Of a stretch of 64,000 nt of DNA, positions 22,843 to 64,000 are shown one piece after another. Numbering within the stretch: the stretch's first letter is position 1; each line of letters begins with the position of its first letter. Made by a program: the position numbers and the translations under genes. The stretch is from Buxus sempervirens. Taxonomy: Eukaryota > Streptophyta > Magnoliopsida > Buxales > Buxaceae. Under the pieces are notes generated by a model. It did not search any database. It was not told where the DNA came from and saw nothing but the letters and a program-made list of their open reading frames with translations. Where the stretch lies: NCBI GenBank assembly GCA_947561395.2, contig OX387187.1, forward strand, positions 5,090,976 through 5,154,975, given 5' to 3'.

Positions 22843-23043
22843 GGCAAACACAGGGGTATGGTTGGTCCAAGGTTTGGCAAGATAGAGTTTCAGTTTGAGT
22901 TAAACACAAGATCATGCCAATCCTTTATCCACAAAGATATTTCGAACGAATAAAAGATATAATTCGCTCATTTAAAGGGATATTAGACTGAAGATAAGGC
23001 TCAGAAATCGAGAAAGGATAAGACTCGCACAAATCTAATGCGC

Positions 23044-23146
23044 CCGTAAATATATTACGGTCGCGCCCTGCCCGTATTATTAATACGAGCACGCCGTGAC
23101 CGTATATCAACTGCAGGTATGACCAGACCGTAAACAAAATACGGTC
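23044..23146 (-). repeat. U3 palindrome array, 28-bp period (CG-N11-CG)
   Basis: Four dyads are centred at 23052, 23080, 23108 and 23136, exactly 28 bp apart. The clear ones are CCGTAA-N5-TTACGG, CGTATT-N3-AATACG and GACCGTA-N7-TACGGTC. The third (23101-23115) is degenerate, with CA where the right CG should be. In the others the two CpGs are separated by 11 bases. The right LTR repeats the array at +9285. A matching array lies in the leader (29408-29507). Confidence 0.8.
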
Positions 23147-23249
23147 ATGACCAGCTTGGCCAGATTTTACACTTTTTTTACCTGTTTTAAATCCCAATTA
23201 ATATTTTCAATTATTTTCTCATTTTGTAGTGCAATTTTGGGTGTCTACA

Positions 23250-23263
23250 GCTGCCCCCTCTTT
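23250..23263 (-). other. Polypurine tract of the gag-only element
   Basis: The minus strand reads AAAGAGGGGGCAGC directly before the left LTR's TGTAGACACC, the expected place for plus-strand priming in an element on the minus strand. Confidence 0.75.
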
Positions 23264-26200
23264 GCTGGTGATTGGAACCAATTACCAGCAGAGAGCAAAA
23301 AGACCCACAGATTGCACTTTTTTGAGATTTGTCCAGCTAATTGCAATTTGTAAGGATTAAAAGGATGATTTTGGAAAAAGAATTTGTGTGGAGGATTTGC
23401 TGAAAAGTCCCTAACCCTAAGGGCCAAATCCTCCTCTCTAGTCTCACTGAGCACTCGTGGCTATGAAGTAAGATTTGAGACAAATTTTGAAACAAAAGTG
23501 GGTAAGGTGGCAATCCTTGCAACTTACAACTAATCTAAACATTAATCTTCTGAAAAGTTTGGAGAAAATGATGAAAAATGAATTTTTCTGGATGGCTTGT
23601 AGTTGTAGCACAATGAACAGCAAAGAACAGACAACTCAAAATTGCACATTTGAAAGACATCTCATTAATTGAACTTGCTTTGGTCAAACAAAGAAATGAT
23701 AAAAACATGGATTCGAAGATAGCCAATGAAACTCCTGCTTGAAGTCTGATGGGGTGGCGTCTCTTCCTTATCTCAGATTTCTTAGAACTCTCGTGGCTAT
23801 GAAAAGAAATCTGAGACAAGCAAATTTTGAAAAAAATGTGGATTTAAAATTTACCACTGCAAACTCAATTGATTTTGATGTTTTTCACCTTTTGAATTTT
23901 CCTGATTGATTTTCTTATTTGATATACCTGGGTGCCATTTGATGCCCGAACCTGTGCTTGAATATTCTGCAACTTGCTTTTGCTTCTTTATCTTCTTGCT
24001 CTCTCAATAACGATGTATGTGCCCTTATTGCCCATAACCTGTCTTCATGCTTTTTAATTGCCCAAGTGAATGCCCTCATCTTGATTAATGGATCATGATC
24101 TGCTAACCTCATGCCTTTACAACCCATGACCTATCTTTCATGCCTTCTTGCTGCCCCAGTAAAATCCTTCTTCATGATTGAAGAATTGGGAACCCTTGTT
24201 TAACGAAGAAAACATGCCATTGCTTCGAAGCCCTTTTTTTTCTTTCAAATTCGAAGACTAAAGCTTGACTGCTTCTTCCAGATGTTTGAATTCATTCTAA
24301 TGAAAACCCAGAAGGAAAGACACTGAGCATGCCCCGGTTTTGATTGTTTGAAGAAGTATTTGCCCCTCAGTAGAGATGATCCTCTTTTTTCCTTTTTCTC
24401 TTTTTTTTCTTTTTTTCTTTTTTTTTCTTTTTTCTTTTTTTTTATCCTTCTTTTTTTTTGTTTACCTTTGCCAAAAAGAAACCCTAATAGAAGAATGCAA
24501 ATGCAAACATAAGAAAATATTTTTTATACTAGTGGCCTCAAAATTCTCTAATGCTTGCAAAAACCAATGTTTTATGAAAAGAAATAGATGCTCATCATAG
24601 GCCAAAAATATAGTTTTTGCCTTTTTTTATGTTTTGATTTTTTTTTGAAAATTGATCCAATCACTTATTAGCATATAGTCCAAAAGAATTAAAATCAAGT
24701 TGAATAATGAGAAGATTATTTCAGAAAATGAAGAAAGACCAAAATAAGCCTTTGGAACCTTTAGAATCATTCCCATGACCATCGGCTTGTCAATTTATGC
24801 TCTAGATATGATGATTCTTTCAATTTGACTCTTTTGCCCTAGTCTAGAAATACATTTTCCTTCATCCAATTGAAGAGCAATTGTTTCTTCATTGTATCCA
24901 TGATATGAGAATTTATGACTTCACCTTCAGCAATAATTTCTTAATGGCAATTTTGATGACCATCAACTTGTTCACAAAGGCTTCATACCATAGTTCTGAT
25001 TATGTTGCTTCAGTCTTGAAAAGAGAATTTTCCTCAATCACTTGATGTGTGACTGTATCTCAAAATAACCTCCAATATGAGGACTTCATTTGGATCTATA
25101 CCAATTCTAGACTTTCCTCTTTGACGATTTCCTTCTTGTAGATAGCTGATTATTTGCCATGTAGAGCCCTTTCGAGTTTTCACTACATTTCCTTCATTTT
25201 TTTCCTTTTTCTTTTTTTTTCTTCTTTTTTCTTTTTTTTTTTTTATCCTTCATCACCAGCAACTATGTAATCAAAGCTGCCGTAATTCAAAATTTCTTAA
25301 TCAAAGAGGACTTATGAATGGGATGAAACGAAGGCTTGGTGTTAATTTAGAAAGAAAAGGAATAAAAGGCTCAAATACCATATGATCAAATGGGTTAACT
25401 GAAATTGTAATTTTTAAGGCATTTCTTCCCTTGGAATGAATACAAAATTGCCCTCAGTAATGAAGTTCTTCCCCCACTTTCATTTCTTCATTTGAAACTT
25501 ATTCTCCAGTATTGAACTTCTTTTTCAATTTTTTTCTTCACAATTTCAAAAACATTCTCATGATCTCTTTTTCTTCTTTCTTCCTCTTTCTTTTTCCTTT
25601 TTTTTTTCATTTCTTGGCCCCTTTTTCTGAAAACATCTTCAAAATCCCTTTTGAACTTCAACAATTGTCCCTTCATTCCCTTTTTTATGCTTAACTCTTC
25701 AAGTAGGATCTATATTATGAACAAGTTCTTCACCTTTTGATCAATCTTATGAATTTGGATTCTTTCCATCAAATAATACCCAATTCTATTTCCAACGAAA
25801 ATTTCAAATCTTCTCCCATATTTTCAAGTGCAAAGCCCCAAAATTTCTTCAAACAATATTCTCAACTTCCCTTTGAACGAATCAGCAAGTGATGCGATCC
25901 TTTCTGTATTCTAATGAAAAAACTTCAAATATTCTTCTATCTTTTCTGTTGAAGACTGTGGGTCATCTTTGGTTCCAAAGGCCATAAAATTGGTCACTTC
26001 ATAATTTTGCAGAATATTCTTCTCATGACACTTAAAAAGATTTGAATTTTCTTATAAAATGTCTTTTTCTTTGATTTTGGTCTCAAAATTGAGTCCAATG
26101 TCGAAGTCATATTCAACTCAATGAAATTCAATAAGAGATATGATTCATAAGTAAAAGGACCTTGCTGAAAACTTTTTTTTTCTAGAAAAAATTTTAAAGG

Positions 26201-26290
26201 GAAAAATCTTTTTTTTTTTTTTTGAAGAGCCTTTATTGAAATCACTTCCTGAGAACAAGGCTCTTTAGGATCCTCAGGAAATGTGCATTC
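23264..26290 (-). other. Interior of the gag-only element without recognisable domain
   Basis: About 3 kb where pol would be expected. It is AT-rich, with long T-runs (24385-24465, 25195-25245, 25590-25610, 26205-26222) and no frame longer than about 95 codons. None of the short frames shows RT, integrase or protease motifs. Text such as 'gaagatttgagac' recurs near 23470 and 23800. It may be a scrambled or replaced pol region. Confidence 0.7.
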
Positions 26291-28116
26291 TTTTTATGCG
26301 GGTTTCTTTTCAAAGAACATGGGAGTTCGAAAACTGCCCCTGTTCTCAAAGGCAAAAGTTGACTTTTCTCCCTTTTTCTGATAATTTCTTTCTCCTGCTG
26401 AGTGAGGCAAGCCTTCCTGCTCATAACCAGGAGCATTTCTTTCAAGATAAACCCTAACTGTTGGACCAATAGGAGCGATAAGCTGAGAAGGGTCAAATCT
26501 TCTTTCTCTAGAGAAAATTGCCCCTATTGCATTTGAGCTTCCTATCCCATTGTTATCGGTAGGTGGGATGGGAGTGACTGAATTGAATGATAAGGAGTTA
26601 TTATCCAACAAATCCTGGATTGCATGCTTTAGGGCCAAGCAACGATCTGTGGTATGCCCGGAATGCTCATATGATAATCACAGATTGCAGATGAATCACA
26701 ACCCTTCCCTTTGCTTGAATGAGGATTTGGCAACCTCAAAGTCATGTAACCCTTTTGAAGTAAAGTATGCAAAAGTTCAGATGGTCTCATAAGCAGTTTT
26801 CAAAACTCCCTTATCTTCCGTACTTCTATTTCCTCATTGACAGGCTGTACTGAAGGTACATTTATTTGGATAGGCAGCAAAGGAACTTGATGGGTTGGCT
26901 TGATAGGAGGTGGGTAGGCATTGATTTGAAAGTGTTTCCTAGGAAGTTACACCATATTTACTTCTGCTTCTCTCCTTTCCTCAGATTTTTCCTTTCCATT
27001 GCCATTTCCCTTGTTATGAGTGGAGAAAGTGGTGGAAGCCTCATGGTTTAACACTGAAGAGTAATCAGCTATTTTCCTAGACTTGATCCCATCTTCAATT
27101 CTGTCTGCCACTTGCACTAGGGCAGCAAAGTTGGTGGTAGTTTGACCCACCAAGTGACTATAAAATGGTTGCCCCAGTGTACTGATGAAAGTGGAGATCA
27201 TTTCTGGCTCCAGCATAGGTGGCCTGACCTGAGAGGTAGTCTCCCTCCATCTTTTAGCATATTGCCTTACAGATTCGTCCTTACTTTTGCTCATCCTCAT
27301 CATATCATACCTATCTGGCATGATCTCAGAATTGAACTTGTACCGGGCCAAGAAGGCGTCTGCTAGGTCCTTCCATCTTCTAATCCTTCTATAGTCTAAA
27401 GTGGCGAACCACCTCAAAGCAGTTCCAGTCAAGCTCCTTTGGAAGAGCTGAATCAGTATGCCATCATCCCGACCGAACTGGCATAGGGCTCCGTAGTACA
27501 ACTTCAAGTGGCTCATGGGGCAGCCAGTGCCATTGTATTTGTCTAGGTCTGGGCACTTGAACTTGGCCGGTAAGCATACATTGGGGTATAAACACAAATC
27601 TTCGAAATTGGTGCCTCCAAAGTTATTCACCCCTTTTACCTCCCTCAGTTCATCCTGAATCATCTCCAGCCTATGCATGAACTTCTTTTCCATCTCATCC
27701 CTCATTCTCTCTTTTTCCTTTTCTTTCTCAGACTCAACTGTTTCTTCCCTGATCAGTATAGGTTCAAGGGTAAGTTCAGAAATGGGTTCAGGAATAGGTT
27801 GAACTGGAGGTGGAATGTTGGTTTGAGGTGGAGGTGCTTGGTTGGAAGTGGAGGCTTGGTTCTGGGCTTCGACTTGCTGGGCCTGCACCGCCAGTAAGTT
27901 TTCTAGCATTTGGGCAATTCTTGCCACTTGCTCTTGCAGCAAGGCAATGTCTTGACTAGGACCATCAGCTTCGTTCTCAATGGGATTCATTGTGCGAGCT
28001 CTTGATCTGATTACAGGAGCTATGGTTGCAAGTGTACTTGGTACCTGGAAAAAATAAAGAGAAAATATCAGTGCCAATTTAATCTTATTCACATACCTAT
28101 GAATGCCTATATGCAT
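26290..28116 (-). pseudogene. gag: Tat/Ogre-like gag, C-terminal part degraded
   Basis: 28116-26947 (389 codons) is open and carries the gag domain: CLPAKFKCPDLDKYNGTGCP, YYGALCQFGRDDG, GTALRWFATLDYRRIRRWKD, FLARYKFNSEIMPDRYDM, VRQYAKRWRETTSQVRPPML. A TAA at 26947 then ends the frame, although similar text continues. After further breaks a segment reads HSGHTTDRCLALKHAIQDLL and continues to about 26294, the histidine/cysteine stretch that follows gag in Tat/Ogre elements. The first 24 residues from the ATG are probably intron, because TTTTTTCCAG|GTACC lies inside them (acceptor at 28045); homology with the element at 58028 starts just after that point. Gag would form the particle; enzymes would come from elsewhere. 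Confidence 0.85.
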
Positions 28117-28230
28117 GCTGGGTGAACAGAGTTTGGATTTTTTTTCTTTATTTGCTTCCTTTTTGTGCTTTTGTTTTTGAATTATTGGAATATTCTAGGG
28201 CTTCCAAGTGTCCCACAAAGAATGAAAAAT

Positions 28231-29245
28231 GTCTAAAATTCAGAGGCTTTTAGACGGCCCAAAAAGATTGATATTTGAAATTCAGAGGCTTTCAAATGGC
28301 CCAAAAGGATATGTGTCTATAATTCAGGGGCTTATAGACAGCCCAAAGAAATGATTTGTCTAAAATTCAGAGGCTTTTAGACGGTCCAAAGAAATGATTT
28401 GTCTAAAATTCAGAGGCTTTTAGACGGCCCAAAGGATATGTATCTATAATTCAGAGGCTTATAGACGGCCCAAAGAAGTGATCTGTCTAAAATTCAAAGG
28501 CTTTTAGACGGCCCAAAAAGGTTGTGTCTAAAATTCAGAGGCTTTTAGACGGCCCAAAAAGGTTATGTGTCTATAATTCAGAGGCTTATAGATGGCCCAA
28601 AAAGGTTGTGTCTAAAATTCAGAGGCTTTTAGATGGCCTAAAGAAATGATTTGTCTAAAATTTAGAGGCTTTTAGATGGCCCAAAGAAAAAGATCTAAAA
28701 TTCAAAGGCTTTCAGAGGCCCAAAGATTTTTTAGAAAGGTCTGAAATTCAAAGGCTTTCAAAGGCCCAAAGAAAAAGACTTGAAATTTAAATGCTTTCAG
28801 AGGCCCAAAGAAAAAGACTTGAAATTCAAAGGCTTTCAGAGGCCCAAGCAAAGGTTTGTTGGAATATTCTAGGGCTTCCAACAGGTCCCACAAAAAGAAA
28901 AAAGGATCTGAAATTCAAAGGCTTTCAGAGGCCCAGGGATATTTTTCCAAAAGGTCTGAAATTCAAAGGCTTTCAAAGGCCCAAAAGATATGTGTCTATA
29001 ATTCAGAGGCTTATAGACGGCCCAAAGAAATGATTTGTCTAAAATTCAGAAGCTTTTAGACGGCCCAAAGGAAAAAGATCTGAAATTCAAAGGCTTTCAG
29101 AGGCCCAAGGATATTTTTGCAAAAGGTCTGAAATTCAAAGGCTTTCAGAGGCCCAGAGATTTTTTATAAAGGTCTGAAATTCAAAGGCTTTCAAAGGCCC
29201 AAGGAAAAAGATCTGAAATTCAAAGGCTTTCAGATGCCCAAATGA
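28231..29245 (-). repeat. Tandem hairpin repeats upstream of gag (about 42-45 bp units)
   Basis: About two dozen units share the 9-nt loop TTCARAGGC between complementary arms. Arms differ between units but pair within each: GTCTAAAA/TTTTAGAC (28231-28255), ATTTGAAA/TTTCAAAT (28273-28297), GTCTATAA/TTATAGAC (28315-28339), TCTGAAA/TTTCAGA (28907-28929). Spacers read 'ggcccaaaga...'. Near 28190 and 28860 a piece 'ggaatattctagggcttcc' is shared with the repeat array of the element at 58028. It lies inside the predicted leader intron. Confidence 0.85.
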
Positions 29246-29407
29246 TTCTCTCACATTTTTTTTAATTTATTTTTTTTTGAAGCATTTTATTCAAACTCAT
29301 TTCCCTTTATCATTATTTAAAGGTTAAAGGAACAAGATTTAGTGGGAAAAACTGGTTAAAATTGAATTTTCCGCTAAGACTGCATACACAGTACAGTCCA
29401 ACCCTGC

Positions 29408-29507
29408 CCGTATTCAAATTACGAGCAAGCCGTGACCGTATGGAAAACACGGGCGAGCCCAGCCCGTATAACCAATACGGGCGAGCCCAGCCCGTGTACT
29501 AAATGTG
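29408..29507 (-). repeat. Leader palindrome array, 28-bp period
   Basis: Dyads centred at 29416, 29444, 29472 and 29500, exactly 28 bp apart, with the same CGTA-N7-TACG core as the U3 array. The best is GCCCGTAT-N5-ATACGGGC (29462-29482). The last has TG for the right CG. A stretch beginning CCCTGCCCGTATT is nearly the same as in U3 (23066 onward), so leader and LTR arrays share origin or are kept alike. Confidence 0.8.
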
Positions 29508-29879
29508 GTTTTACGGAGCTCTTTTATGTTTTCCCAGTTTTTACATGATTTGATCACTTTGATTGCTCATCCAAACATACGGTTCACCCATTGCCAAGCT
29601 TCTAAACTATCCCAAAGTGGACTTTGGCCTATTTGCAAAAACACATGTTTAGGAGGGCACATGTACCCTCCAAATCGACACCATATTCAGGGGTATAGTA
29701 CCCTTGAGTTGCCTCTTGTATGAACATTGGGTAGGATTGATTCTAAACAGAGGTAAAAACTCTTCCTATGGGCTACACCAATTTTAGAAAACATGCATAT
29801 TTGGGACCAATTTTACCCCAAATGATGGACACCATGACACCCCTATGACATGAAAATAATGCAAAAATTAAGGTTACCT

Positions 29880-30330
29880 TGTTTACCTTCAATATGGGAT
29901 CCGCATTATGCCCTGGTTTGTGAGCCATGCAAACGGCCTTCCCTCAATTACAAGCCCATATTCCCCCGTAATTGTGTACTTTAGCCAAAAACGTGTTTAA
30001 CTCCACCTTCAAGTGTGGGGGCTTTGGGTTTTGGCTTAATGGCAACTTAGCACTCAAGTCTAGTGATGACCAGAATCGAATCACAGATCCACGTTATCAT
30101 CACATCATTGGCCCAAAGTTCTAAGGTGAATGTTTTCACTTTCGCTTTCCGAAGTATCGACCTCGTTGCGCCAAGCTACACACATTTGGGTTCAACTTCC
30201 TATAGGTTATAGGTAGGCTGTGTAAAATAAAATGTGCACAGTGCATTGTAAAAATTGGGTGCATTCACAACGTCCCAAACCCTTGCCACTCTTTTCGTAA
30301 CCATGCATATACAAACCAAGGCATAATAGG
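29880..30330 (-). other. Conserved leader block shared with the element at 58028
   Basis: Several blocks match, in reverse orientation, the leader at about 61180-61720: 'cgttgcgccaagctacaca', 'gttttcactttcgctttcc', 'gatgaccagaatcgaatca' and 'ttgccactcttttcgtaa'. No reading frame explains this. It lies between the primer site and the repeats and could hold an RNA packaging or dimerisation signal. Function is inferred from position only. Confidence 0.55.
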
Positions 30331-30708
30331 AAAGCATATATAAAGTAAACAAATACACAAAGCAATCCCTATAGCACCTAAAACATGCTCATAAAAATCA
30401 TCCAATCATGCAAACATCTGATCATGTTATACACCAAAAAATCACCATGGAGATCATGCTGAAAATTAAAACATGCTATTATAAAAAAAATATAGAAAGA
30501 AATAAACATGATTCAGCAAAACGAACCTCCCCTACACATGTTTCTAGAAACAATCCTATAAATCAAAATTAAGCATGTTTCTACCCCCATGAATTCTTAA
30601 GCAATAATTCAGATTTAAAACATACCCAACATGCTTAAGAACACAAAATAGCAAGCAAATCAAAAAAATCAAAAACATGAACAAACACCAAAAGGCTGAA
30701 ATCCTCAA

Positions 30709-30727
30709 GTCCCAGCGGAATCGCCAG
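30709..30727 (-). other. Primer-binding site, Arg-tRNA type
   Basis: The minus strand reads TGGCGATTCCGCTGGGAC just after the LTR end (CACA plus one or two bases). Its complement resembles the 3' end of plant tRNA-Arg as I recall it, with one mismatch. The element at 58028 has TGGCGACTCTGCTGGGGAC in the same place. Ogre/Tat elements commonly use tRNA-Arg. Confidence 0.65.
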
Positions 30728-30728
30728 T

Positions 30729-32534
30729 TGTGAGACACGGGAAAAAATCAATTCAATGACTTCCTCAATCATCACACGGGATTGGTTAAAAACAAAGAGT
30801 CACCACCATTCTGTTTAGGTATGAATGGACACCAAAATATCAAATAAGCTCAAAAGGCAATTTTAGGGTAAACATAACCCTCTTTAAAAAACAACCAGAG
30901 ATGGGTAAGGGGATTAGGTTATGAACAGGGGAAGGTGTTAGGCACCCCTATTCATCCACACAAGGTGGTTGCCAAGTATTGTTCATGTTAAAATAAAGGA
31001 AAAAAGAGCTTGCTACAAAAATCATAAAAAGTCACCAAAAGTCAACTGTATGGTTTTTTCATACGAATAGCCTAATTGATCCAGAACTTTCAAATATGAT
31101 CATAACATTCCTAGGGTTTCATGATCAAAACAAAATTGAGATAAAATCAAATAAAACCAAAATAAAGTGAAATCTTCAAAAATCTGGCTTCAAGTTAAAT
31201 TCTAGAAATCTAGAAAAATATGATTTTTATAAAATATTTCAGAATTGAACTTAAATAGTCCAGGATATAGGTAGAGCCCAAATTTCACATTAAATCAAGA
31301 AATCAAAACCAAAAATACCCACGTTGATGAAGAACATCAAAAGGGGAGAACTCAGACCGTAGGGTCTTCTCTCAAAAGTGAAAAACAACTCAAAAACCAT
31401 ATCATGAAACCCTAGAATTTATTTTCAGGCTTCTGGATCCAGATCTATCATACTGATCATGATGGATCCAGGGTCTTAGCCTAATATCACAAAAATCACG
31501 AAAACAGTGCTGTAGGTGCAAATATGTGAAAATCCAAATTTTAGAAAAAAGTGGGGATCTCATGCTATAAACACCATGGATTCATAGGATTCATTCAGAT
31601 TCAATCACAAGATCATTAAAATATGAACAGGATATCCAAAGCAGCCATATCTCACAAATTAGAGCACATGGGAGTCTACCCTACGGATCCACCTGTTCTC
31701 TTTTCCCCTGGCTCTCTCTTCACGTTTTACGGCTAGAGAGGATTCTTGAGGTACTTGGAGATAGGTTTGGGTATACAAACACAATCAAAGGCTTTATTCT
31801 AAAAAAAAGGAGAAAAACAGATATGGGGTTCTATTCTAGGGATCCACCTGTTCTCTTTTCCCCTAGCTCTCTCTTCACGTTTTACGGTTAGAGAGACTCT
31901 TGAGGTACTTAGAGACAAGTTTAGGAATACAAGATAAAAGATGTGGCCTTATTCTACAGCAATAGAGAAGATCCTATTACTTCTAGAATTGAAGACAGAA
32001 AATAAAAGGGAAAAGGGACTTACCTGGATTGAGCAAGCAGAGCAGCAGGGATTCCTCTTTTCTCTTGGAGCTCCTTGGACTTCAAATTTTCTTGGCCTTT
32101 TGCTTGAGGAAGGGCCCTCTATTTATAGGCAAACACAGGGGTATGGTTGGTCCAAGGTTTGGCAAGATAGAGTTTCAGTTTGAGTTAAACACAAGATCAT
32201 GCCAATCCTTTATCCACAAAGATATTTCGAACGAATAAAAGATATAATTCGCTCATTTAAAGGGATATTAGACTGAAGATAAGGCTTAGAAATCGAGAAA
32301 GGATAAAACTCGCACGAATCTAATGCGCCCGTAAATATATTACGGTCGCGCCCTGCCCGTATTATTAATACGAGCACGCCGTGACCGTATATCAACTGCA
32401 GGTATGACCAGACCGTAAACAAAATACGGTCATGACCAGCTTGGCCAGATTTTACACTTTTTTTACCTGTTTTAAATCCCAATTAATATTTTCAATTATT
32501 TTCTCATTTTGTAGTGCAATTTTGGGTGTCTACA
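30729..32534 (-). repeat. 5' LTR (right copy) of the gag-only element
   Basis: 1806 bp, equal in length to the left copy. TATA box at 32120-32127, donor-like CAG|GTAAGT with the intron starting at 32023 (minus), and palindromes at 32329-32431. Of about 10 mismatches with the left LTR that I count, 6 lie in the first 110 bp (+ strand), the U5 end beside the primer site. Confidence 0.92.
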
Positions 32535-34018: not shown

Positions 34019-34771
34019 TGTAAGCACCGCATTTTTGCATCTCCCAAAATGCAGAAAATGAAATTTTAATTGAAAAGTCAAACCTGAGAAAGTCAAAAAG
34101 TTGACTTTTTTATCTGGTGCAAATCAATCACCATACTTCTCACCATTGGAAAGAGGATTCCGATACGATTTTAATGGAACTGAGTTTGCTCAAATCGGAG
34201 TCCAAATGAAGAAGTTATGGACTGGTCAAATATGAGAAAAGCAGAAATTGAATTTCTGCTAAACCCCAAATCAGCTACCCCATTTGATACCAGCAGAAAG
34301 AGCATCTCGACACAATTCCAACGCAACTGAGTTTGCTGGAATCGAAGTCCGGGATAAGGAAATATGAGCAAAGTTGGCTCCGGGACGCAACTCGGCACTT
34401 CTGCTAAAAAACCCAAATTTGCTGCTAAACTCTAGCTCAGTAGATAGAGGATGTCAACCCGGTTCCAACGCAACTGAGTTTGCCAGAATCGGAGCTCAAA
34501 TGAGAGAGTTATGGACAATCCTTGGTCAAAAATAAACTGTCCACGTGGCAAACTACGCCACGTGGACGTCCCCCTTTTTAACCCTTAAGTAAACAAAAAT
34601 ATTAACAAAAACAGTCTTTCTTAACCCCTAAGTAAAAAATATTAATAAAAGAGTCTTTCTTAACCATTAAGTAAAAAGTAATAAGTCACAAGTAAGAAAT
34701 AACAATAAAAAAGTCACTTTTGATAAAAATATTTAAAAATTGGTCTTTCTTAACCCTTAAGCAACATCTCC

Positions 34772-34780
34772 TATAAAAGG
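34772..34780 (+). promoter_or_regulatory. TATA box of the 34019 LTR
   Basis: TATAAAAGG followed about 35-70 bp later by a CT-rich tract, typical of a plant retroelement transcription start. Confidence 0.65.
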
Positions 34781-35888
34781 GGAGGGGGTGGGATGCATTA
34801 GGGGGTTGAGCACATTTTGGTCTCTCCATTCTCTTCTCTAACCTCTCTCCCATCTCCCCCAAGCTCTCTTCATCTCTCCCACTCTCTTGAACCTCTTCCC
34901 CCAAGCCATTTCTCTACCACTTTCCTTCACTTCCATCACTTGGAGGAGGTCTTGGAGATCATTTGGAGAGGAGGAGGTGCTGCCCAAGGACTGTGGTGCC
35001 ACGAGGAGACTCAAGCACATCCTCAAAGAGGATTCCAATCTCAAGGTGAGGCTCCCCATCATGTTGTGTTGCATATATATTATAATAAGATTTTTCTGAA
35101 AAGTTTTCTAATATTGTCTTTTCCCTAGCATAAATCTGGTATAGATGTCCATTTGCATGCCTTTTCTTCTCTTTTTTCGGTAATGTGGAGGTCTATAAGG
35201 GTAGGAGAGAGCCTATCTCATTTTTAGCCCCATTAAGTTGCTATTTTGAGTTTTGTTTCAATTATTTGTAGGGGAGCATGTTCCCTTTAGCATGATCATC
35301 TATTGTATCCCAATTTAATCCCCCCTATTCCCTTCTTTAGACACTTTTTAGTTAGATGTGTGAGTTGGGTGCATATGGTTATAATAGGAGGGATGGGTGA
35401 TATATGTTCCTTTACTCATTTGGATAGGATCATAGCTTTAAGCATGCTTGTTTTTCTTTACTTTTGCATGTGTTCACTTAGGGTTATAACTCATTTTTAG
35501 TTGTTGTTTTGGCCATGAAAAGTCAGTCCCCCCTTTGCACACGTTCCATGGGGCTGGATTGGGTTTTTGTTTACTTGAAGCATGTTCGTGGATGCTCCAC
35601 TTCGCTTGCTGTTTATGTAGGATAATGGTGGATCTTTTAGAAGAAAAAGGGACCCAAGACAGGGACACTTGAGTCCTTATTTGTGCATCAAGTGGGTCCA
35701 GAAAAGAGGAGGAGGCAAGCCCCGGCCACCATCTCCTCCCTTTAATTTTCAAAACATCAAGAAGAGAGCCAAGTGGCTCTCACCTGAACCAATGTGGGCT
35801 CACACAGGAGCCCACACAATCCCTGGAACATCCTAGACGACCCAGAAACCCAACCCCCTTTGAAAAATCCGAAAAAAGGCTTCTGTAT

Positions 35889-35994
35889 GTTGATCCGGCA
35901 ACTCAGGTCGGATCAACAAAGCCTTATTTGTAGCCGGCTAAAGATGCCGGATACACTGAGCCTTGTGTGTAACCGGCATCTCAGGCCGGCTACA
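35889..35994 (+). repeat. Palindrome array, 39-bp period, three dyads
   Basis: GTTGATCCG-N11-CGGATCAAC (centre 35903), TGTAGCCG-N11-CGGATACA (35942) and TGTAACCG-N11-CGGCTACA (35981). Centres are exactly 39 bp apart and the CpG-to-CpG spacing is 11 in all three. The second and third each have one mismatched arm base. The loop GCAACTCAGG also occurs at 61813 in the element at 58028. Confidence 0.8.
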
Positions 35995-37639
35995 CTGCTA
36001 GACTGCATTTTTGCTAATTTTGTGATATTGTGCTAATTTTTTGGTTTGTTTGATCAATCCGGATGAACCAGAAGGGTTTCCGGGTCACCCGAAAACCCAA
36101 GATGGGCCATGGACCGACCTGATCCAAATTGATTCCCGGTGGGCCTTCCAACGGGGTCCCCCAAGCCCGACAGACTTTTTTTGATAAATCAAGATAAATT
36201 TAACCGAATGAGTGGGCCACACCATTGGAGGCCCACCAAAGCCCAACTGGGGTAGCATGTATGTTTAGATCTAGGCTTGGTTTGGCCGAGACTGCGGGTA
36301 GGGCCGATCGGGCCCGCTAAAACGCATTAAATAGAACCAACTTAGGGTTTCCAAACCCTAACTCAGGAAGCCTTGGGTTTTCAAGCCCAAGCCCAGGTAA
36401 AGGGCCCCAAGCCCAAGGCCTGGCCCGTTTTGGCACAAATTAAGCAAGATAAACTTAAATCATTTGGCAACCAACTGTGTGGCCCACTCAAGGGCCCACA
36501 AACAGTCCCGGTCCACTTGTGCATAGAAATCACTTAAACCTTTCAATTTGAACCATTAAATAAAATCAATTCATTTGAACCAAGCCCAAAGGGCCTCTCA
36601 AGTTAGACCGAGGCCCACCAGGGGACACGTGGGCTCAACCAAGCCCACCAAGGAATCCGCGGGCCTTCCAACGAGGCCTGCCCAATCAGACTCATCTCAT
36701 CTTTAACTAAAAAGATAAAATCAAGTAAAGGGACCCACACTGCTTTGACGGTCCCGCCAGACTTAACCGAATTGAATGCTGGATTAGGAACGGGTGAGTG
36801 AGAGACCAAAGGTTGACTCAAAACCAGGAAACCATGGGACCCGTCATTCAACGGGGTGGACTGAGGTGTCTACGGACTTCCCCAGACCACAACAGAGAAC
36901 TTGCTTAGAATCTCAAGCCGCAGACCAAGCCTTAATAGACAAAAATAAGCACCCAAGTGTCTGCCTGCACCCCATCAGGCAGTGACGACTCCAAACAAAT
37001 CCCGAGGCACGCATCATTTTGCATGCGCCTCGTCGTGTGACCGAAATCAGGTGCGCACAAGTATAAAGGCCCACTTGCTACGGTCTGGGACGGGTCGTGC
37101 CTTGGAGGGGCAGGCTCGGTTCTGGGTCGTGACAGCCTGAGCGATGGGTTGAGCGACTGTTAAAAGAATTGATTTTGGGTAGGTCACCCAAGGGGATCGC
37201 CTGGCAGCCCACCTTGAGCGCCCATGTTATTTTTTATTTAAACTTTAAAACACGATCGCCCAACCAGGTCTCCTAGGCGATGGGGTTGGGCGATCAATAC
37301 AAAAACTTGATTTTCTGAAATTGAAGAATTATTCCAATACAAAATGATTTTTAAATGAATTTAAATATATGAAGTGCATACAACTGTTTTCAATGATCTT
37401 TTGTATTAAAAACAATTTGAAGAGGAATTTAGGTTTATTTGCAAAAAGGTTGTCTTACTTTGGAAAAAAAAAGGATTTTTGGGACTATTTCACAATCTGA
37501 TTTGAGTTGATTCTTACTCAGTAAAATATATTTTAAAGTATCTTGATTTCTGAACTTTAGAAGAACTTCACACTAGAAATATAATAAGTATTAACAAGAG
37601 GTTTTGGATTATTGATTGAACATGAACAAACTATTTTAT

Positions 37640-41557: not shown

Positions 41558-42106
41558 TGTAGACACCCCAAAATTGCACGATTTTTGATAAATCTTGAAG
41601 GAAAGAAATATTTTATTGGAATTTTCAATTCTTTGCATTGGGTTTGAGATCCTTAACCCATTTGAATCCAAAACCGTAAAGGAAAAAGCCCGAATTCAAT
41701 ATTTTGTGCAAAGTCAAACTTTTTCCGGTGGAATTTTGTTGACTTTTGACCCCAGAAAATGAAATATTTTTTAAAGCAAGATTTCAAGATAATTTTTCCC
41801 TGTAATCAGGTTTTTAGCCATATTATTGCATAAAAGAATTTTTTAAGATTTTAAATCTTGACGAATACCTTGGTTTTAACATGTTGAATCTTTTTACCGG
41901 ACCTAAAAAACTGGAATTTAGCCTGAAACTGGAAAGTTGACTTTTTATTCACTTGGAATTTGGGTCTGGAACTATTTTTAATGGATTCAAATGGGGGGTG
42001 TTTGCTTATTTACATGTAATATCTTAAGTAAGACATTTACTTAAACGATATTACATGTAAATAAGTATTGCCTGTGTTAAAATTCAGATAAAAGCTTCTT
42101 TTTTTT

Positions 42107-42251
42107 GTATCTGACAAATAATGTCGGATATAAAACATCTCTATTGTATCCGACAGATAATGTCGGATACAAAGGATCTTTATTGTATCTGATAGATAAT
42201 GTCGGATACAAAGAGAATTGCTTGTATCCGACCTGACATGTCGGATACAAG
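42107..42251 (+). repeat. U3 palindrome array, 39-bp period, four dyads
   Basis: Dyads centred at 42119, 42158, 42197 and 42236, exactly 39 bp apart. Arms are GTATCYGAC/GTCGGATAC with N7 loops. The longest is 12 bp (42221-42232 with 42240-42251). Two left arms carry TG in place of CG, leaving a G-T pair. In all four the CG (or TG) to CG distance is 11 bases. Confidence 0.85.
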
Positions 42252-43933
42252 CTTTTTGGCTCAAAATTAGGGTTTTCCGAGAGTTTTCACTTTTTACCAT
42301 CATATCCTTCATTAAAGGAGTGGAAATCTCGAGACTCCCCCTAGCCGTAAAACGTAAAGGCGGGATCTAGGAGAAACGAGACTGAGGATTGATCCTAGTA
42401 TTAAAACTTTGTTGGAATAAGCCTTGTGATTCTATGAAAACCGTTCCATATTCAAAGTACCTCAAGATTATCTTGAAGAACCGTTATACGGGGAGAGAGA
42501 ACTAAGGGAAACAATAATGGAACGAAACCCTAGGCTGTTTTAGAACCCCATTTGATTGATATGAATGCATGCTATATGTTGTTATATTGTTGAAGAATGG
42601 ATTTTTACACATGCACACATAGCACTTTTTTGTCGAATTCGACTCATATTTCGGATTTATTGCATTTATTGTGATAAATCTGGAATAAACAGCCCCAAAC
42701 AATTTTGGGATGTTTCTTATTGATTTTCAACATGATTTCAATCAAGTTTATTTCAAATATTAAAGGCCTCTAGGCCCAACCTCTCGGTTTTGGGCATTTT
42801 TGCTCACTTTTGGGGTTTTTGGCATATCCTTTCCAATCGGAGAGGATGGTGAGCCAAACTTGTGCCCTATTTTTCCTGGAGGTTCTTCAACACTTTTTCA
42901 AGTGATTTTGATTCATCTTGCACGGATTCCACACACCTTAGCACTATTTTGAGTTGATTTTCTTTAAAAAGGTTTAACTTGACAACAACTATACCCCAAC
43001 TTCAGACACTCGTAACTTCATTGTCCGGATGAATTTTGGAGTGATTCCAGAGCCATGGGAAAGGTGAGCTGTCTAGTTTATGCCTGTAAAATTTCATTAA
43101 TTTCTATCAAGCGGATTTTTGACACCTCTCTGTCGAAGTTGATAGGTCAGTTCAGGTCTGATTACGGAACCTATCACTTCGACTGAGCGCCATGTGTTCG
43201 TTTTAAGTCTGATTCAAGTGATTCTTATTTTTGTGTTTTCCTTTGGAAGTCTAGTTTCAAATCCAGTTGGTTTCATAATTGTTTGAGTCCATTTGTGTCG
43301 TGGGTAGCAAATTTACTCAAAACTACTCAACAGCACTTTTTTGGGCAAACCTGTGATCATCGGGGCCTGTTGGGGAGATCACCCAAGGCACATCCGAATG
43401 AATTTTTGTATGAGGCTAGTTTCATTTGAAATATGGCCATACAGACTTCATTCACACAAAATTTCATAGATTTATATGGAGCCAAGTTTTTTAAATGATT
43501 TTCCAAACTTGCCCACTTGTCACCTTTAACTATCTCCAACAGCACTTTTAAAGGAGGATAACTCTTAGGTTTTTAACCGGATTTAATTGCAAATTTGCAT
43601 GGGTCTTATATTTATCATAATCTTTCAAATAAATTTGGTTTGATTCAATTTAAATTGGATTTGAAGGATTTCAAGACAAATGGAATTATCTTTTACCGAA
43701 TTTTCCGGATTTGACTCAACTTGGGTTTTATGCAATTTTTGCTTTGATTTCCATCTATTGGTGATATTCCAGAAGTAATATTGACATAAAAGAGGATCTA
43801 GAATTCATTTGGATTTCTCATGTGGAAATAACACATATTTGTTTAATCCTTTTCCAAGGTTTTTGATGATTTTAGCAAGCTTTCTCATTTTTTAGCATGA
43901 ACAACACTTGGCAACCACCTTGTGTGGGTGAAT

Positions 43934-43956
43934 GGGGGTGCCTAACACCTTCCCCC
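43934..43956 (+). terminator. Conserved U5 palindrome
   Basis: GGTGCCTAACACCTTCCCC with extra flanking G and C: stem GGTG-CCTAA-CACC extended by G/C runs. Same element as at 21643 (reverse) and 60059. Confidence 0.45.
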
Positions 43957-44179
43957 ATTCATAATCTAATCCCCTTACCTATCTCTGGATTTGATTTTCA
44001 AGTAGAGTTATTTTTACTCTAGTATTTGCCTTTTAGCTCTTTTTGCTTATTTTGAATCTTTTGGTGTCCATTCACACCCTTAAAATCTGAATGGTGGTGA
44101 CTCTCCCATATTTGCCTTGAGCCTGTGTGTTGACGGAGGGGAAATCATCCCGGTGATTTTTTCCATGTCTCACAGTTAG

Positions 44180-57938: not shown

Positions 57939-58117
57939 AATCAGTCATCCTACTCTAAAGGTTAGCAATTTTCCTCTTCCTCCATTCCCTAAGCTTAGAT
58001 TTCAAGACCTTGACTTTGCTTACAACCTGTAGACACCCCAAATTGCACAAACAATCATCAAAAATCATTATCTCCTGGAAAGCCAGCACAGAATTTGAAG
58101 AAAATAAATTTTTGCCT

Positions 58118-58258
58118 GTATCCGGATACTCAATCCGGATACAAGTGCTCCTCCCCGTATCCGGATAGTCGTACCGGATACGTGTGATCCTTAGCGTATC
58201 CGGTACCATGTACCGGATACCTTAAGGCACTTTGTTATCCGGTCTGATATACCGGATA
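58118..58258 (+). repeat. U3 palindrome array, 39-bp period, four dyads
   Basis: GTATCCGG-N9-CCGGATAC (58118-58142), CGTATCCGG-N9-CCGGATACG (58156-58182), GTATCCGGTAC-N3-GTACCGGATAC (58196-58220) and TATCCGG-N9-CCGGATA (58236-58258). Centres 58130, 58169, 58208 and 58247 are exactly 39 bp apart. Spacers between dyads are not conserved. Confidence 0.88.
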
Positions 58259-58415
58259 CCTTAAGTTTGCTCAAAATTAGGGTTTTCCGAGAGCTTTTCA
58301 CTTTTACCATCATGTCCCTCATTAAATGAGGGGAAATCGCGGAAATAACCTTAGGGTTTAGGTTGGAGGGGTTCTAGACATTAATTTGTGTCTACCAATG
58401 ACCTTAGCCCTTGCC

Positions 58416-58423
58416 TATAAATA
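58416..58423 (+). promoter_or_regulatory. TATA box of the 58028 LTR
   Basis: TATAAATA followed by AGGAGCC, about 115 bp before the donor site; same spacing class as in the gag-only element. Confidence 0.65.
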
Positions 58424-60303
58424 GGAGCCTCCTCCTTGAGCAAATGGCACACAACTCTTGTTTTGAATTCTCGCAAAGAAGAACTCCAAGAGAAGAAGGA
58501 AACCGCTGTGGAATCGTCTCCAGAACTCAGGTAAGCCTCAACTTTTCTTTTTATTTTCTGTCTTTACATTTCTAGATCTAGATCTCTTCTTCTACCTTTC
58601 TGTAGTGTAAAGCCTTGTTTGTGTGTGGAAATCCTTCCCCGGCTCAAAGTATCTCAAGACTCCCCTAGCCGTAAAACGTGAAGGCGGATCTAGGAGAAAC
58701 GAGACTGGGGATTGACCCTAGTGCTAGAACCCATGTAGCGTAAGGCTTTTGAATGATTGAAAACCGTTCCATATTCAAAGTACCCTTGATTATCTTAAAG
58801 AGAACAGAGGGAAACGATAATGGAACGGAACCCTAGGCTATGCTAGAACCTATTTTGTTGAATCTATATGCATGTGTATGGATCTTGCTTGGTTTTTTTC
58901 ACTTTTGCACACATATCACTATTTTGGCGGGATAGGCTCATATTTGGGGTTTATTGCATTTATTGTGATAAAACTCAAATAAATGACCTCAATCAAATTC
59001 TGGAGTGTTTTTATATGTTTTTCAAAGGTTTTGGATTCATCTCACACGAATCACACACTTTTTGTCAATTTTCGGATTTGAATTTCTTCAAAAGTGGCTT
59101 AACTTGACAGCACCTGTACCCTTACTTCGGACGCCCATAACTTCATCATCCGGATGAATTTTGGGGTGATTCCAGAACCATGGAAAAGGTGAGGCTGTCT
59201 AGTTTATGTCCACCAAATTTCATGAATTTCTATCTAGCCGATTTTTGACACCTCTCTGTCGAAGTTAAGTGGACAGTTCAGTTCCAAGTACAGAACTTGT
59301 CACTTCGACGGACCGCCATGTGTTCGTTTTAAGTCCGATTCGAGTGATGTTTATTTCTGAGTACTCCTTTTTGAGTCTATTTTCAAATCCAGTTGGTTTC
59401 ATAATTTTTGGATTCCATTTGAATTATTGGTAGCCGATTTACTCAGAACTGCTCATTTGCATTTTTCTGGGTAAATCTGTGATCTTCGGGGCCTGTTCGG
59501 GAGACCACCCAAGGCACATCCGAAGGGATTTTTGTATGAGGCTAGTTTCTGTTGAAAGATGGCCATACAGACTTCAAATACACCAAATTTCACGGATTTC
59601 TATGTAGTGGATTTTTCTAGACAATTTTCCAAAGTTGCCCACATTCCACTTTTAAAAATCCCCAACAGCAACTTCAAAGGAGCATAACTCCTAGATTTTT
59701 CATCGGAATGAAGTGAAATTTTGCATGAGACTCTTGTTTACCCTAATCTTTCAAATGGATTTGGTTTGGGTCAATTTAGAATTGGATTTGAATGATTTTA
59801 AGGCAAATGGCATACTTTTTACCAAATTTTCCGGATTTGATTCAACTTGGTTTTGATCAACTTGTGCTTTGATTTCTATCTTTTGAGATATTTCAGAAAT
59901 GATATTGACATAAGAGAGGATCTAAAATCCATTTAGATCTTCATGTGGAGATATCATACATTTGACCTTTTTCAAGGCTTTTTCATGATTTTTAGCAAGC
60001 TTTCTTACTTTGTTTTTTGCATGAACATACACTTGGCAACCACTTCGTGTGGATGAATGGGGGTGCCTAACACCTTCCCCCGTTCATAATCTAATCCCCT
60101 TACCCATCTCTGGATTTGATTTTCAAGTAGGGTTATTTTTACCCTCGAATTTGTCTTTTGGCTATTTTTGCCTACTTTTGAAATCTTTGGTGTCCATTCT
60201 CACCCCAAAATCATGAATGGTGGCGACTCTCCCGTTTTTACGTTGAGCCCGTGTGTTGACGGAGGGACGATCACTCCGGTGATTTTTTCCCATGTCTCAC
60301 AAC

Positions 60304-60322
60304 TGGCGACTCTGCTGGGGAC
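60304..60322 (+). other. Primer-binding site, Arg-tRNA type
   Basis: TGGCGACTCTGCTGGGGAC lies two bases after the LTR. Its complement resembles the 3' end of plant tRNA-Arg from memory, with one mismatch. Confidence 0.7.
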
Positions 60323-62237
60323 TTGTGGATTTAAGCCTATTTGTGTATATTCATGCTTTTTCTTCACTTTTGAATGCTTGCTATTTTGCTTTTTGTGAAT
60401 ATTGTTGTATCTTAAATCTGAATGGGATGCTTAAAATTTTTCATGGATAAGGGCATGGTTATGTTTCTTGATTTGGTTTAAGGGAAAAACCCACATTGTT
60501 ATATGACTTTTGCTATATTATGTGTTAACATTGGTTTTGGGGTTAGAATACCATGAAAAATATACAATATTGGAAATCTGGAAATTTTGTGTTTGTCTTG
60601 GTTATTCAAGCATGTTTCCCATGAATAAAGTATGTTTTGTGCTCAATGTTTGCTTTATGCCATGCTTGGGATTTTGGGGATATGATGACATGATTTGAGT
60701 GGGAAAATAATGAGCAAAAATCTGTAAATACAGTAGCCATTAGGATGGTTTTCAAGCATGTTTTCCCTCATTAAAACACTTTGGTATCATGTCAAGTAGT
60801 TGCTAAATTTTTAGGCATTAATTTGCGGGTATAAGGGAAGCACTTTTGAGCATGAAAATTCTGGAAATTTCAGTATATATTTGGGGGATTTCAAGCATGT
60901 TTTACCTCATTGAAACACTTTTGAACCATGCCAAGTAAGTGCTAAAATTTTAGGCTTCAATTTGGGGTAAATGGTACACTTTGAGCATGAAAAAGGCATG
61001 AAAATCTGGAATTTTAGGGAATGCTTTTGGGTCAAGCATACTTCCATGGTTTAGTTGTTGTTTGTACAAATAACATGTTTTGTATACCACTTTTTGGGCA
61101 TGTAATATTTTTTGTGCATATTTGGTTACTTTGGTGCTTGCTTGCTTGTATTTAGCTTCATTATCTTTGTTATTAGTACCTTGGCTTGAAATTGAATGCA
61201 TGGCTACGAAAAAGAGTGGCAAGGGGCTGGGACGTTGTGAATGTTACCACAATTTAAAATTGCACTTGAGCACTTGAAACAATTTGCACAGCCTACCCTT
61301 TACCTATTAGGAAGTTGAACCATGAATGTGTGTAGCTTGGCGCACCGAGGTCGTGACTTCGGAAAGCGAAAGTGAAAACATTTACCTTAGAATTTGAGTC
61401 AATGATGTGGTGACAATGGGATCTGTGATTCGATTCCGGGCATCACTAGACTTGAGTTCTAAGTTGCCAATTAAGCCAAAACCCAAAAACCATACGCTTG
61501 AAGGTGTAGAAACACGTTTTCGTCTAAAAGCACACAATTGCGTTTGGGGAAATTGGGTGTAAATGTGGGAAGGCCGTTTGCATGTTTTACAGGCCAAGGT
61601 ATAATGTGAATACCATATTAAATGAAGGTAATACAAGGTGGCAAGGTAAAACCATGTTCTTTTCATGAATTTGGGGATTTTGCAAATATAATGTCCAAGC
61701 CCAATTTGGGGCAAGTTTTGAAGGTCAAATTAAGGTTAACATCAATTGGGAATGAAAAAAAATCAAATCTGGTGAAAAAATGAGTTAAAAAGGGCCATTT
61801 CGGCAATAACCGGCAACTCAGGCCGGTTAATAACAACCCTGTTCATATCCGGTACATATTTCCGGATAAAAAGGCATATGCGTGAATCCGGTTATGGTAA
61901 CCGGATACAATAAGGCATATTATTATCCGGAATGTTATACCGGATACGTTCAAAAATGCACAAATTGGCTTTTCAGCCCAAGTTTTCAGAATAAAATGCC
62001 TAAAACACTGTGGATCACCCTTAGGCACCCCGAAAAGAACATAAAAAATGTTCCAAAAAAGAAAAAAAAGAAAAACAAACAAAATAAAATATTATTTCAG
62101 GATTTAACCTAAGTTTGAAAATCAAAGAGGAAACCAAGGTGTCATATTTTTTGACACCAACTCAACTCAAACATGTGTCAATCAAACTCTGGAACTTGAA
62201 AACTGAGAAAATTCAGCAAATTTGAAGAAGAAAAAAA
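60323..62237 (+). other. Leader of the 58028 element
   Basis: No gene. It includes three similar stretches around 'aagcatgtttt...cattaaaacactttt' (60750-61040), the block conserved with the other element (61180-61720) and the palindrome array at 61808-61946. Confidence 0.65.
61808..61946 (+). repeat. Leader palindrome array, 39-bp period, four dyads
   Basis: AACCGG-N9-CCGGTT (61808-61828), TATCCGG-N9-CCGGATA (61846-61868), ATCCGG-N9-CCGGAT (61886-61906) and TATCCGG-N9-CCGGATA (61924-61946). Centres 61818, 61857, 61896 and 61935 are exactly 39 bp apart. Arm sequence and period equal those of the U3 array of the same element. Confidence 0.87.
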
Positions 62238-63330
62238 AACCTTTGGTTGGTTATTTTTATCAATCAAATCAAAAAAAAAGTGGGACACTTGGAAGCCCTA
62301 GAATATTCCATGAAAACCCTTGGTTGGTTATTTTTATCAATCAAATCAAAAAAAAAATGAAAACCTCGGTTGGTTATTTTTATCAATCAAATCAAAAAAA
62401 GTGGGACACTTGGAAGCCCTAGAATATTCCATGAAAACCTTGGTTGGTTATTTTTATCAATCAAATCAAAAAATGAAAACCTTTGGTTGGTTATTTTTAT
62501 CAATCAAATCAAAACATTTGTGGGATACTTGGGTAGAGTAGTCCAAGAAACCTTTGGTTGGTTATTTTTATCAATCAAATCAAAACATTTGTGGGATACT
62601 TGGAAGCCCTAGAATATTCCAAGACACCTTTGGTTGGTTATTTTTATCAATCAAATCCAAAACATTTGTGGGATACTTGGATAGAGTAGTCCAAGACACC
62701 TTTGGTTGGTTATTTTTATCAATCAAATCAAAACATTTGTGGGATACTTGGATAGAGTAGTCCAAGACACCTTTGGTTGGTTATTTTTATCAATCAAATC
62801 AAAACATTTGTGGGATACTTGGATAGAGTAGTCCAAGACACCTTTGGTTGGTTATTTTTATCAATCAAATCAAAACATTTGTGGGATACTTGGAAGCCCT
62901 AGAATATTCCAAGACACCTTTGGTTGGTTATTTTTATCAATCAAATCAAAACATTTGTGGGATACTTGGATAGAGTAGTCCAAGACACCTTTGGTTGGTT
63001 ATTTTTATCAATCAAATCAAAACATTTGTGGGATACTTGGAAGCCCTAGAATATTCCAAGACACCTTTGGTTGGTTATTTTTATCAATCAAATCAAAACA
63101 TTTGTGGGATACTTGGAAGCCCTAGAATATTCCAAGACACCTTTGGTTGGTTATTTTTATCAATCAAATCAAAACATTTGTGGGATACTTGGATAGAATA
63201 TTCCAAGATACCTTTGGTTGGTTATTTTTATCAATCAAATCAAAAAAAAAAATGAAAACCTTGGTTGGTTATTTTTATCAATCAAATCAAAAAAAAATTG
63301 GGACCCTTGGAAGCCCTAGAATATTCCAAC
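62238..63330 (+). repeat. Tandem repeats upstream of gag (about 16 units, mostly about 73 bp)
   Basis: Each unit contains TTGGTTGGTTATTTTTATC then AATCAAATCAAAA, followed by a variable part with CTTGG...CCAAG arms, of two kinds ('aagccctagaatatt' or 'atagagtagt' between the arms). The repeated peptide FYQSNQK seen in several frames is a by-product. The 'gaagccctagaatattcc' piece is shared with the array at 28231-29245. Confidence 0.85.
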
Positions 63331-63534
63331 TCAAAACAAAAAAAAAACAAAAACAAAAACAAAAAATTTTTTTCTGGCTGGTGTTCACCTAACCTACTGG
63401 TTTACATATATAGGGGTGTGACTCAAGTTAAGTGGAAGCTAACATGTTCTATTCATTTTTTTCCTCAGGTACATTCAACCCAGGTGCACTTATTTGCAGC
63501 CATTGCTCCCGTGACCAGATCCAAAGCAAGAGCC

Positions 63535-64000
63535 ATGAATACTGAAGAGAACCAAGCTCAAGCTACTGTCCCCGCTCAGGACTTTACTCAGCTGCAGGAG
63601 CAAGTGGCCGGTCTGGCCAAAATGCTAGGAGACTTACTGGCGGCTCAGGCCCAGCAGGCCCAAGCCCAAAATCAGGCGTCGACTTCTCATCCGGCACCGC
63701 CACCTCAGGCCTATATTCCGCCTCCGGCTCAGCCCATGCCTGAGCCCATTTCTGAACCAGTCCCTGAGCCCATTCTGATCAGGGAAAATACAGTAGAGTC
63801 TGAGAAAGAGCTGGAGAAAGAAAAGGCTAGGGATGAGATGGAAAAGAAAATGCTGCTGAGGATAGAGAGGATCCAGGCAGAGCTGAAGGAAGTGAAGGGG
63901 GAGGCAGCCATGCAGGCACCACCTTCGAAGACCTGTGCATGTACCCGGACGTCTGTCTACCGGCTAAGTTCAGGTGCCCGGATTTTGACAAGTTTGATGG
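63535..64000 (+). pseudogene. gag: Tat/Ogre-like gag, 5' part, frameshifted
   Basis: The ATG at 63535 begins MNTEENQAQATVPAQD, followed by a coiled-coil-like LQEQVAGLAKMLGDLLAAQ and a Pro-rich stretch. All parallel the gag at 28116. Homology extends upstream of the ATG (APVTRSKARA), so the true start may lie in a spliced 5' exon. Near 63898-63914 (after ...EVKG) one base is missing relative to the homolog: the conserved GTTFEDLCMYPDVCLPAKFR is readable only in the next frame. The gene continues beyond the window. Confidence 0.8.

Follow-up and report, generated by a model that had tools for sequence, protein, structure and literature searches.

The 64-kb window analysed in this work (the whole stretch of DNA, 64,000 nucleotides in length) is plant DNA rich in LTR retrotransposons, and some of these elements carry arrays of short palindromes (dyads) in which two CpGs are separated by exactly 11 bases and the dyads follow one another at a pitch of 39 or 28 bp. 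Our analyses have identified 24 distinct dyads in six independent arrays, the second LTR copy of one array being excluded from this count. The positions of the arrays and the features of the elements that bear them are summarized in Table 1.

Table 1. Dyad arrays and associated retrotransposon features in the window (dyad centres are given in element order).
Feature	Position	Strand	Characteristics
U3 array, four dyads, 39-bp pitch	58118..58259	+	Centres 58130, 58169, 58208, 58247
Leader array between LTR and gag-like frame, four dyads, 39-bp pitch	61806..61947	+	Centres 61818, 61857, 61896, 61935
U3 array, four dyads, 39-bp pitch	42107..42248	+	Centres 42119, 42158, 42197, 42236
Array inside solo LTR, three dyads, 39-bp pitch	35891..35993	+	Centres 35903, 35942, 35981
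U3 array, 3' LTR copy, four dyads, 28-bp pitch	23040..23148	-	Centres 23136, 23108, 23080, 23052
Same U3 array, 5' LTR copy of 21-32k element	32325..32433	-	Centres 32421, 32393, 32365, 32337
Leader array of 21-32k element, five dyads, 28-bp pitch	29376..29512	-	Centres 29500, 29472, 29444, 29416, 29388
5' LTR with 58k U3 array	58028..60301	+	Starts TGTAGACACCC, ends CTCACA, followed by primer-binding site
TATA-like GCCTATAAATAG in 58k LTR	58413	+	Within LTR 58028..60301
Candidate primer-binding site CTGGCGACTCTGCTGGGGAC of 58k element	60303..60322	+	Directly after LTR
gag-like frame of 58k element	63256..63999	+	Still open at window end
Complete element (21-32k or 32k element)	21444..32534	-	1806-bp LTRs, 99.4% identical; flanked by CCAAG on both sides
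gag of complete element	26947-28194	-	PF03732 (Retrotrans_gag), 9.7e-11
Solo LTR with 42k array	41558..44174	+	Related to 58k and 32k LTRs; GTTAG on both sides
Solo LTR with 35k array	34019..37059	+	TG...CA ends; AGTAT on both sides

The complete element is a relative of the 58k element on the opposite strand. The gag-like frame of the latter, which has no Pfam gag match above the cut-off, shares 61% identity over 176 residues with the gag of the former. At E 0.001, the search for proteins related to this gag yielded two, each of them from Rubroshorea leprosula. The domain that identifies it, PF03732, is also matched by the gypsy-type polyprotein at 9750-13445, for which 13 relatives were found, the named ones being from plants. 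In six other frames of the complete element, each of at least 92 aa, that were scanned with Pfam (four on the minus strand and two on the plus strand), no match to pol or to a DNA-binding protein was found above the cut-off, and no copia domain was present in the scanned frames. Judged by sequence, the array-bearing elements are Ty3/gypsy where gag could be typed, an assignment that depends on the gag of the one complete element and does not extend to the two solo LTRs.

The candidate primer-binding sites, TGGCGACTCTGCTGGGGAC in the 58k element and the similar TGGCGATTCCGCTGGGACTTG in the 32k element, both located after the LTR, differ from the tRNA-Met form, and in this respect both elements depart from a Sirevirus. 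A tRNA-Met primer site is used by most Ty1/copia elements and not by the non-chromovirus gypsy elements, according to PMC6317226, and two Ogre families use tRNA-Arg (PMC2533021). The apparent non-tRNA-Met primer site, the large non-coding regions and the gypsy-type gag would fit the OTA (Ogre/Tat/Athila) group, to which these elements may belong; the window, at whose end the 58k element is cut off, contains no reverse transcriptase of these elements. Rfam searches at gathering scores and tRNA scans over the window gave no match, and no relative was found in the viral contigs scanned with the primer site, an LTR 19-mer and the gag protein.

The solo LTR at 41558..44174 is without the TATA region that the 58k LTR has. 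The one at 34019..37059 is inserted in an older repeat (33.4-37.6k) that has an uninterrupted relative near 51660 (51.0-53.3k), and no alignment of the stretch 33001-41000 with the 58k and 32k elements was obtained at E 0.001. An 18-mer, TAGCCGTAAAACGTGAAG, is kept with 0-1 mismatches in the three related LTR families (at 58666, 42342, 22433 and 22588, and also at 31718 and 31873), occurring twice in each 21-32k LTR.

Other repeats and elements were observed in the window. A 43-bp minisatellite of about 20 copies (28224-29247) lies directly upstream of gag in the 21-32k element, and its units contain the inverted repeat GTCTAAAA...TTTTAGAC, for which hairpin folding reaches z -2.8 (28230-28560, minus strand). 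Tandem repeats of 71/76 bp (62236-63245) are found directly upstream of the 58k gag-like frame, a place that resembles that of the 43-bp repeats. A Ty3/gypsy element at 6560-20061 has a gag-pol frame at 9750-13448 and a frame at 13594-14298 with a chromodomain-like match below the Pfam cut-off; its right LTR contains a duplication of 127 bp (15926-16180) and seems to be broken by some 2.4 kb at 16514-18884.

A sequence-only reading of this DNA had described four palindromes exactly 39 bp apart at 58k and a like geometry at 42k and 35.9k (39 bp) and at 23k (28 bp), and the dyad centres located by our analyses bear out all of these descriptions. It had spoken of six arrays and named these four places, to which the leader arrays at 61806..61947 and 29376..29512 are additions. 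Its estimate that about 20 of 23 dyads have both CpGs is corrected here to 19 of 24; the remaining five have TG or CA in register, as it had said, and the CpG is intact in 42 of the 48 half-sites. The first and last dyads of the 29376..29512 array are decayed at the CpG, and dyads 23108 and 29500, which have weak arms (4/9 pairs), are included by register.

The assignment to U3 made in that reading is correct for the arrays at 58k, 42k and 23k; the 35k array is also in an LTR, but a TATA-like box (34772) lies some 1.1 kb upstream of it. The last dyad centre is 169 bp upstream of the TATA box in the 58k LTR and 210 bp upstream in the 21-32k LTRs, while the leader arrays start 1515 bp (58k element) and 1228 bp (32k element) after the primer site, and three of the six arrays are located downstream of the TATA box. 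The 61.8k array and the 58k LTR are on one strand, and the array is placed between the primer site and the gag-like frame, from which we infer that both are parts of one element. Because the 39-bp pitch is found in both U3 and leader of one element and the 28-bp pitch in both of the other, the period follows the element and not the place. The observed/expected ratio of CpG is 0.82-1.90 in the six arrays, compared with 0-0.59 in eight neighbouring stretches (none of which is beside the 35k array).

The phased dyad arrays are real and far beyond chance. The window contains 49 CG-N11-CG strings, and those with well-matched arms fall in the arrays. When at least five of seven neighbouring positions are complementary, 21 sites are found (18 distinct and three in the second LTR copy), whereas 200 dinucleotide shuffles gave a mean of 0.30 and a largest value of 3. 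The gap of 11 is also outstanding among CG-CG gaps, as the others from N2 to N26 give at most eight sites each, and the sites for N24 (seven of eight) and N13 (all four) are gaps between neighbouring dyads of the arrays. Runs of at least three equally spaced palindromes (7/9 pairs) number eight, against a mean of 0.05 and a largest value of 1 in 200 shuffles. These eight runs consist of the three 39-bp arrays noted previously, one run at 61818, two 42-bp runs and two runs in the 43-bp minisatellite. The 42-bp runs cross the 28-bp arrays (dyad, palindrome between two dyads, dyad), and the 28-bp period does not itself appear as a run because dyad 23108 is weak. At the stricter level of 8/9 pairs only the 61818 run is left, and no run occurs in 200 shuffles. 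A search with R-N-CCG-N11-CGG-N-Y, a pattern derived from the present dyads themselves, gave 20 matches where 0.35 would be expected. Of these, 19 belong to arrays, with two of the dyads counted once in each LTR, and the last stands alone at 33729. This lone dyad (33729-33749, GTCCGG...CCGGGT, N11) is outside the arrays, in the older repeat at 33.4-37.6k.

The spacing within the arrays is exact to the base. Successive dyads with two CpGs are 39, 78, 28 or 56 bp apart, so that each of the 13 distances is an exact multiple of the pitch; when the five decayed dyads are added at their register positions, the intervals number 18 (11 of 39 bp and 7 of 28 bp). All 18 neighbouring registers are indel-free, even though 203 of the 445 positions outside the arms are different from one neighbour to the next. 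Inter-family LTR alignments (n = 7, three families) contain 76 gap openings per 501 mismatches, a ratio that leaves out two intra-family rows of the 32k LTR against its own second copy. At this gap rate about 31 indels would be expected with 203 differences and none is seen, an expectation weakened by the non-independence of units and of alignments, by the recognition of the arrays through their spacing, and by the placing of two weak dyads by register. Beside the arrays, we found no CG-N11-CG dyad that has complementary arms but departs from the register. It had also been suggested that the two periods differ by about one helical turn; at 10.5 bp per turn, 39 and 28 bp correspond to 3.71 and 2.67 turns, giving similar angles between neighbours, although two periods prove little.

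Conservation is unevenly distributed within the dyads. Identity inside the 39-bp arrays is 0.93 for arms, 0.52 for loops and 0.42 for spacers, and inside the 28-bp arrays it is 0.69, 0.55 and 0.51, respectively; the claim that arms are kept while loops and spacers are not consequently holds for the former, is weaker for the latter, and has an exception in one loop that two arrays have in nearly the same form. This loop, 11 bases long in dyad 61818, agrees at 10 of 11 bases with the loops of 35903 and 35981, a match as good as that in 27 of 5000 shuffles of the loop letters, although these LTR families otherwise do not align. This likeness suggests that the array may have moved between families, or may have been kept from a common ancestor while the rest diverged. 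The arrays could alternatively be ordinary minisatellites, formed by tandem duplication of a chance palindrome and without function, for their units are in tandem and their inner bases are alike in one array and different between arrays. However, the loops and spacers of the 39-bp arrays are far diverged and the arms are not (a contrast that is less marked at 28 bp), the geometry recurs in non-aligning LTRs, the half-site form is common to two periods, and indels are absent, and we regard this explanation as very improbable.

The half-site common to all arrays is purine-N-C-C-G, read from outside to inside. Of the 48 half-sites of the 24 dyads, all have a purine at position -10, 46 have C at -8, 43 have C at -7 and 47 have G at -6. 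Position -9 is free, with T in 25, A in 11, C in 10 and G in 2, and positions -5 to -3 vary between arrays and are more alike inside one array. The outward form CCG...CGG is common to all six arrays, and the inward form CGG...CCG is found in three of them (58k, 61k and 35k; 21 of 22 half-sites). Eight departures from the CCG core (-8 to -6) are observed, of which seven are in the 5' half-site along the element, the sense of the 35k array, which contributes no core departure, being taken as +; this lean (about 0.07 two-sided, by hand) is unpredicted by a strand-symmetric site.

These observations bear on whether the dyads are read as DNA or as RNA, both of which had been proposed earlier in the form of sites for a dimeric protein or a string of stem-loops; the first of these proposals is favoured by our results, and the second is possible but less likely. 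In the latter case the arrays would act in the transcript as a string of stem-loops serving packaging, dimerisation, export or translation, with the U3 arrays at the 3' end of the RNA and the leader arrays between primer site and gag. Three arrays lie in leader or transcribed LTR DNA, and strong hairpins are predicted (z -9.0 and z -4.3). Two-sided pair changes across all 24 dyads occupy 49 cells, compared with 22.6 in shuffles; the 39-bp set has 13 such cells against 6.2, with a score reached by 0 of 500 shuffles, whereas the 28-bp set is near its shuffles (8 against 5.6 cells, 57/500; score reached by 44/500). True partner arms match somewhat better than permuted arms of the same array at offsets 3-11 (176 against 166.4 +- 4.4, P 0.02); ten versions of the test gave P values from 0.02 to 0.23, of which this is the lowest, and allowing G-U at these offsets gave 0.06. 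Seven dyads have a changed core: a G-U pair is left in five of them, the change is compensated in one (U-A), and the pairing is broken in the last. On the other hand, concerted change of half-sites between arrays would give the same covariation for a dimer site, and hairpins need no base-exact pitch.

The behaviour of position 9 and the nature of the mismatches also bear on this question. In the 28-bp arrays pair 9 is mismatched in four of nine dyads, and pairs 8 and 10 in only 0/9 and 2/9. The five of nine dyads in which pair +-9 is complementary compare with 4.6 for independent halves (by hand), and this near independence is more in keeping with the bases of each half being read than with a stem. 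The pair is complementary in 13 of 15 dyads of the 39-bp arrays (2/15 mismatched). Counted over offsets 4-10, the 21 dyads whose sense is known (the 35k array being left out) have 8 G-T, 6 A-C and 7 other mismatches of 147, and the similar numbers of the first two kinds give no clear lean to G-U. We consider it unlikely, on balance, that the arrays act as RNA.

The dyads are probably phased sites for a dimeric DNA-binding protein that acts on transcription or silencing, a reading suggested by 24 dyads in one window. It is favoured by the singular N11 gap (21 sites against 0.30), by the one half-site form that spans two periods and non-aligning LTRs, and by the free position 9 between nearly fixed positions. 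Points against it are that the same strings fold very well as RNA, that core departures lean to the 5' half, and that half of the arrays are downstream of the TATA box. Under such a mechanism, each dyad would be the binding site of one dimer, with its two purine-N-C-C-G half-sites face to face and exactly 11 bases separating their CpGs, and three to five sites at 39- or 28-bp pitch would allow bound dimers to stack in a set helical phase. Such sites, placed upstream of TATA in U3 and repeated in transcribed DNA (in the leader, or inside one LTR), would be likely to increase the element's transcription or to protect its control region against silencing. Since gag is the sole product identified for the one complete element with arrays, the protein would be supplied by the host or by another element. 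To our knowledge, none of the sites of ARF, VOZ, NAC, DREB or LBD proteins seems to fit the N11 gap or purine-N-CCG across all arrays. A more specific version of this proposal, which we offer tentatively and hold to be rather doubtful, is that R-N-C-C-G/N11 forms a movable cassette of strict 39/28-bp pitch, shared by LTR families that do not align and docking one dimeric protein, possibly an activator or anti-silencing factor supplied by an element, on U3 and leader alike.

A structural role of the DNA, viz. cruciforms or the placing of nucleosomes in the control region, would agree with the long, often perfect arms and the regular pitch, but it requires pairing and not the nearly fixed bases at 10, 8, 7 and 6, and it appears to us the least credible of the explanations considered, with hardly any likelihood. 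The arrays may also be sources of hairpin small RNAs and a target of host silencing, kept since the element cannot lose its control region. The dense CpG and the predicted hairpins are in keeping with this, as is the finding that the palindrome regions of maize Sireviruses are small-RNA hotspots with predicted structure (PMC5311732 and PMC10760457). By itself, however, this account leaves unexplained the kept pitch and the common half-site form in LTRs that do not align, and we judge it quite unlikely.

Of the known systems with which the arrays may be compared, the Gal4-type fungal sites CGG-N11-CCG are dimer sites with a fixed 11-base gap between CG-containing triplets, but their orientation is opposite to the CCG...CGG of the arrays, and we know of no protein of this class from plants. 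A second comparison is provided by the VANDALs, which are DNA transposons. The target motifs of their VANC proteins are, according to PMC5735166, likewise arrays of short sites in non-coding parts, family-specific and enlarged by tandem growth, whereas the VANC21 motif YAGTATTAY is without CpG and its copies have one orientation.

The closest likeness is to Sireviruses (Ty1/copia), for which Bousios et al. (2010; PMC2829016) described palindromic CGG-CCG repeated-motif (RM) boxes, both in the LTR upstream of TATA and in non-coding DNA of the interior. The view that no prior description exists was therefore mistaken as regards palindromic boxes as such. In that paper, which compared Ty1/copia elements and named the RM boxes Sirevirus-specific, the boxes resemble the present arrays in being family-specific, multi-copy palindromes with a shared CG-based core, dense CpG and no named binder, and copies in LTRs upstream of TATA together with internal copies are found here in the 58k and 21-32k elements. 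The outer CpGs of the RM boxes are N6-N8 apart in 12 of the 13 Table 3 consensus sequences (the 13th, Tnd-1, having one CpG), and the maize Sirevirus form as quoted in PMC10760457 has N9, in contrast to N11 in all six arrays here. The Sirevirus core is inward CGG-CCG, a form present in half of our arrays, which all have the outward one. Internal copies in Sireviruses are mostly before the envelope gene, according to PMC2829016, and here they are in the leader before gag. Sireviruses have a Ty1/copia coding region, whereas the complete element here has a PF03732 gag and lacks a copia domain in its scanned frames.

Our literature search, the coverage of which left out most subscription papers, found no description of Ty3/gypsy elements in which an N11 gap goes together with a pitch of 39/28 bp, and no such arrays appear in the portions seen of PMC11963269 (on Retand) and PMC6911290. 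Palindromic control boxes are thus known from Sireviruses, and the N11 gap, the fixed pitch and the Ty3/gypsy setting are, as far as we could find, apparently new. If these observations hold genome-wide, palindromic control boxes would not be special to Sireviruses, and the fixed half-site, gap and pitch would provide a sharp handle for finding the controlling protein of a class of plant retrotransposons.
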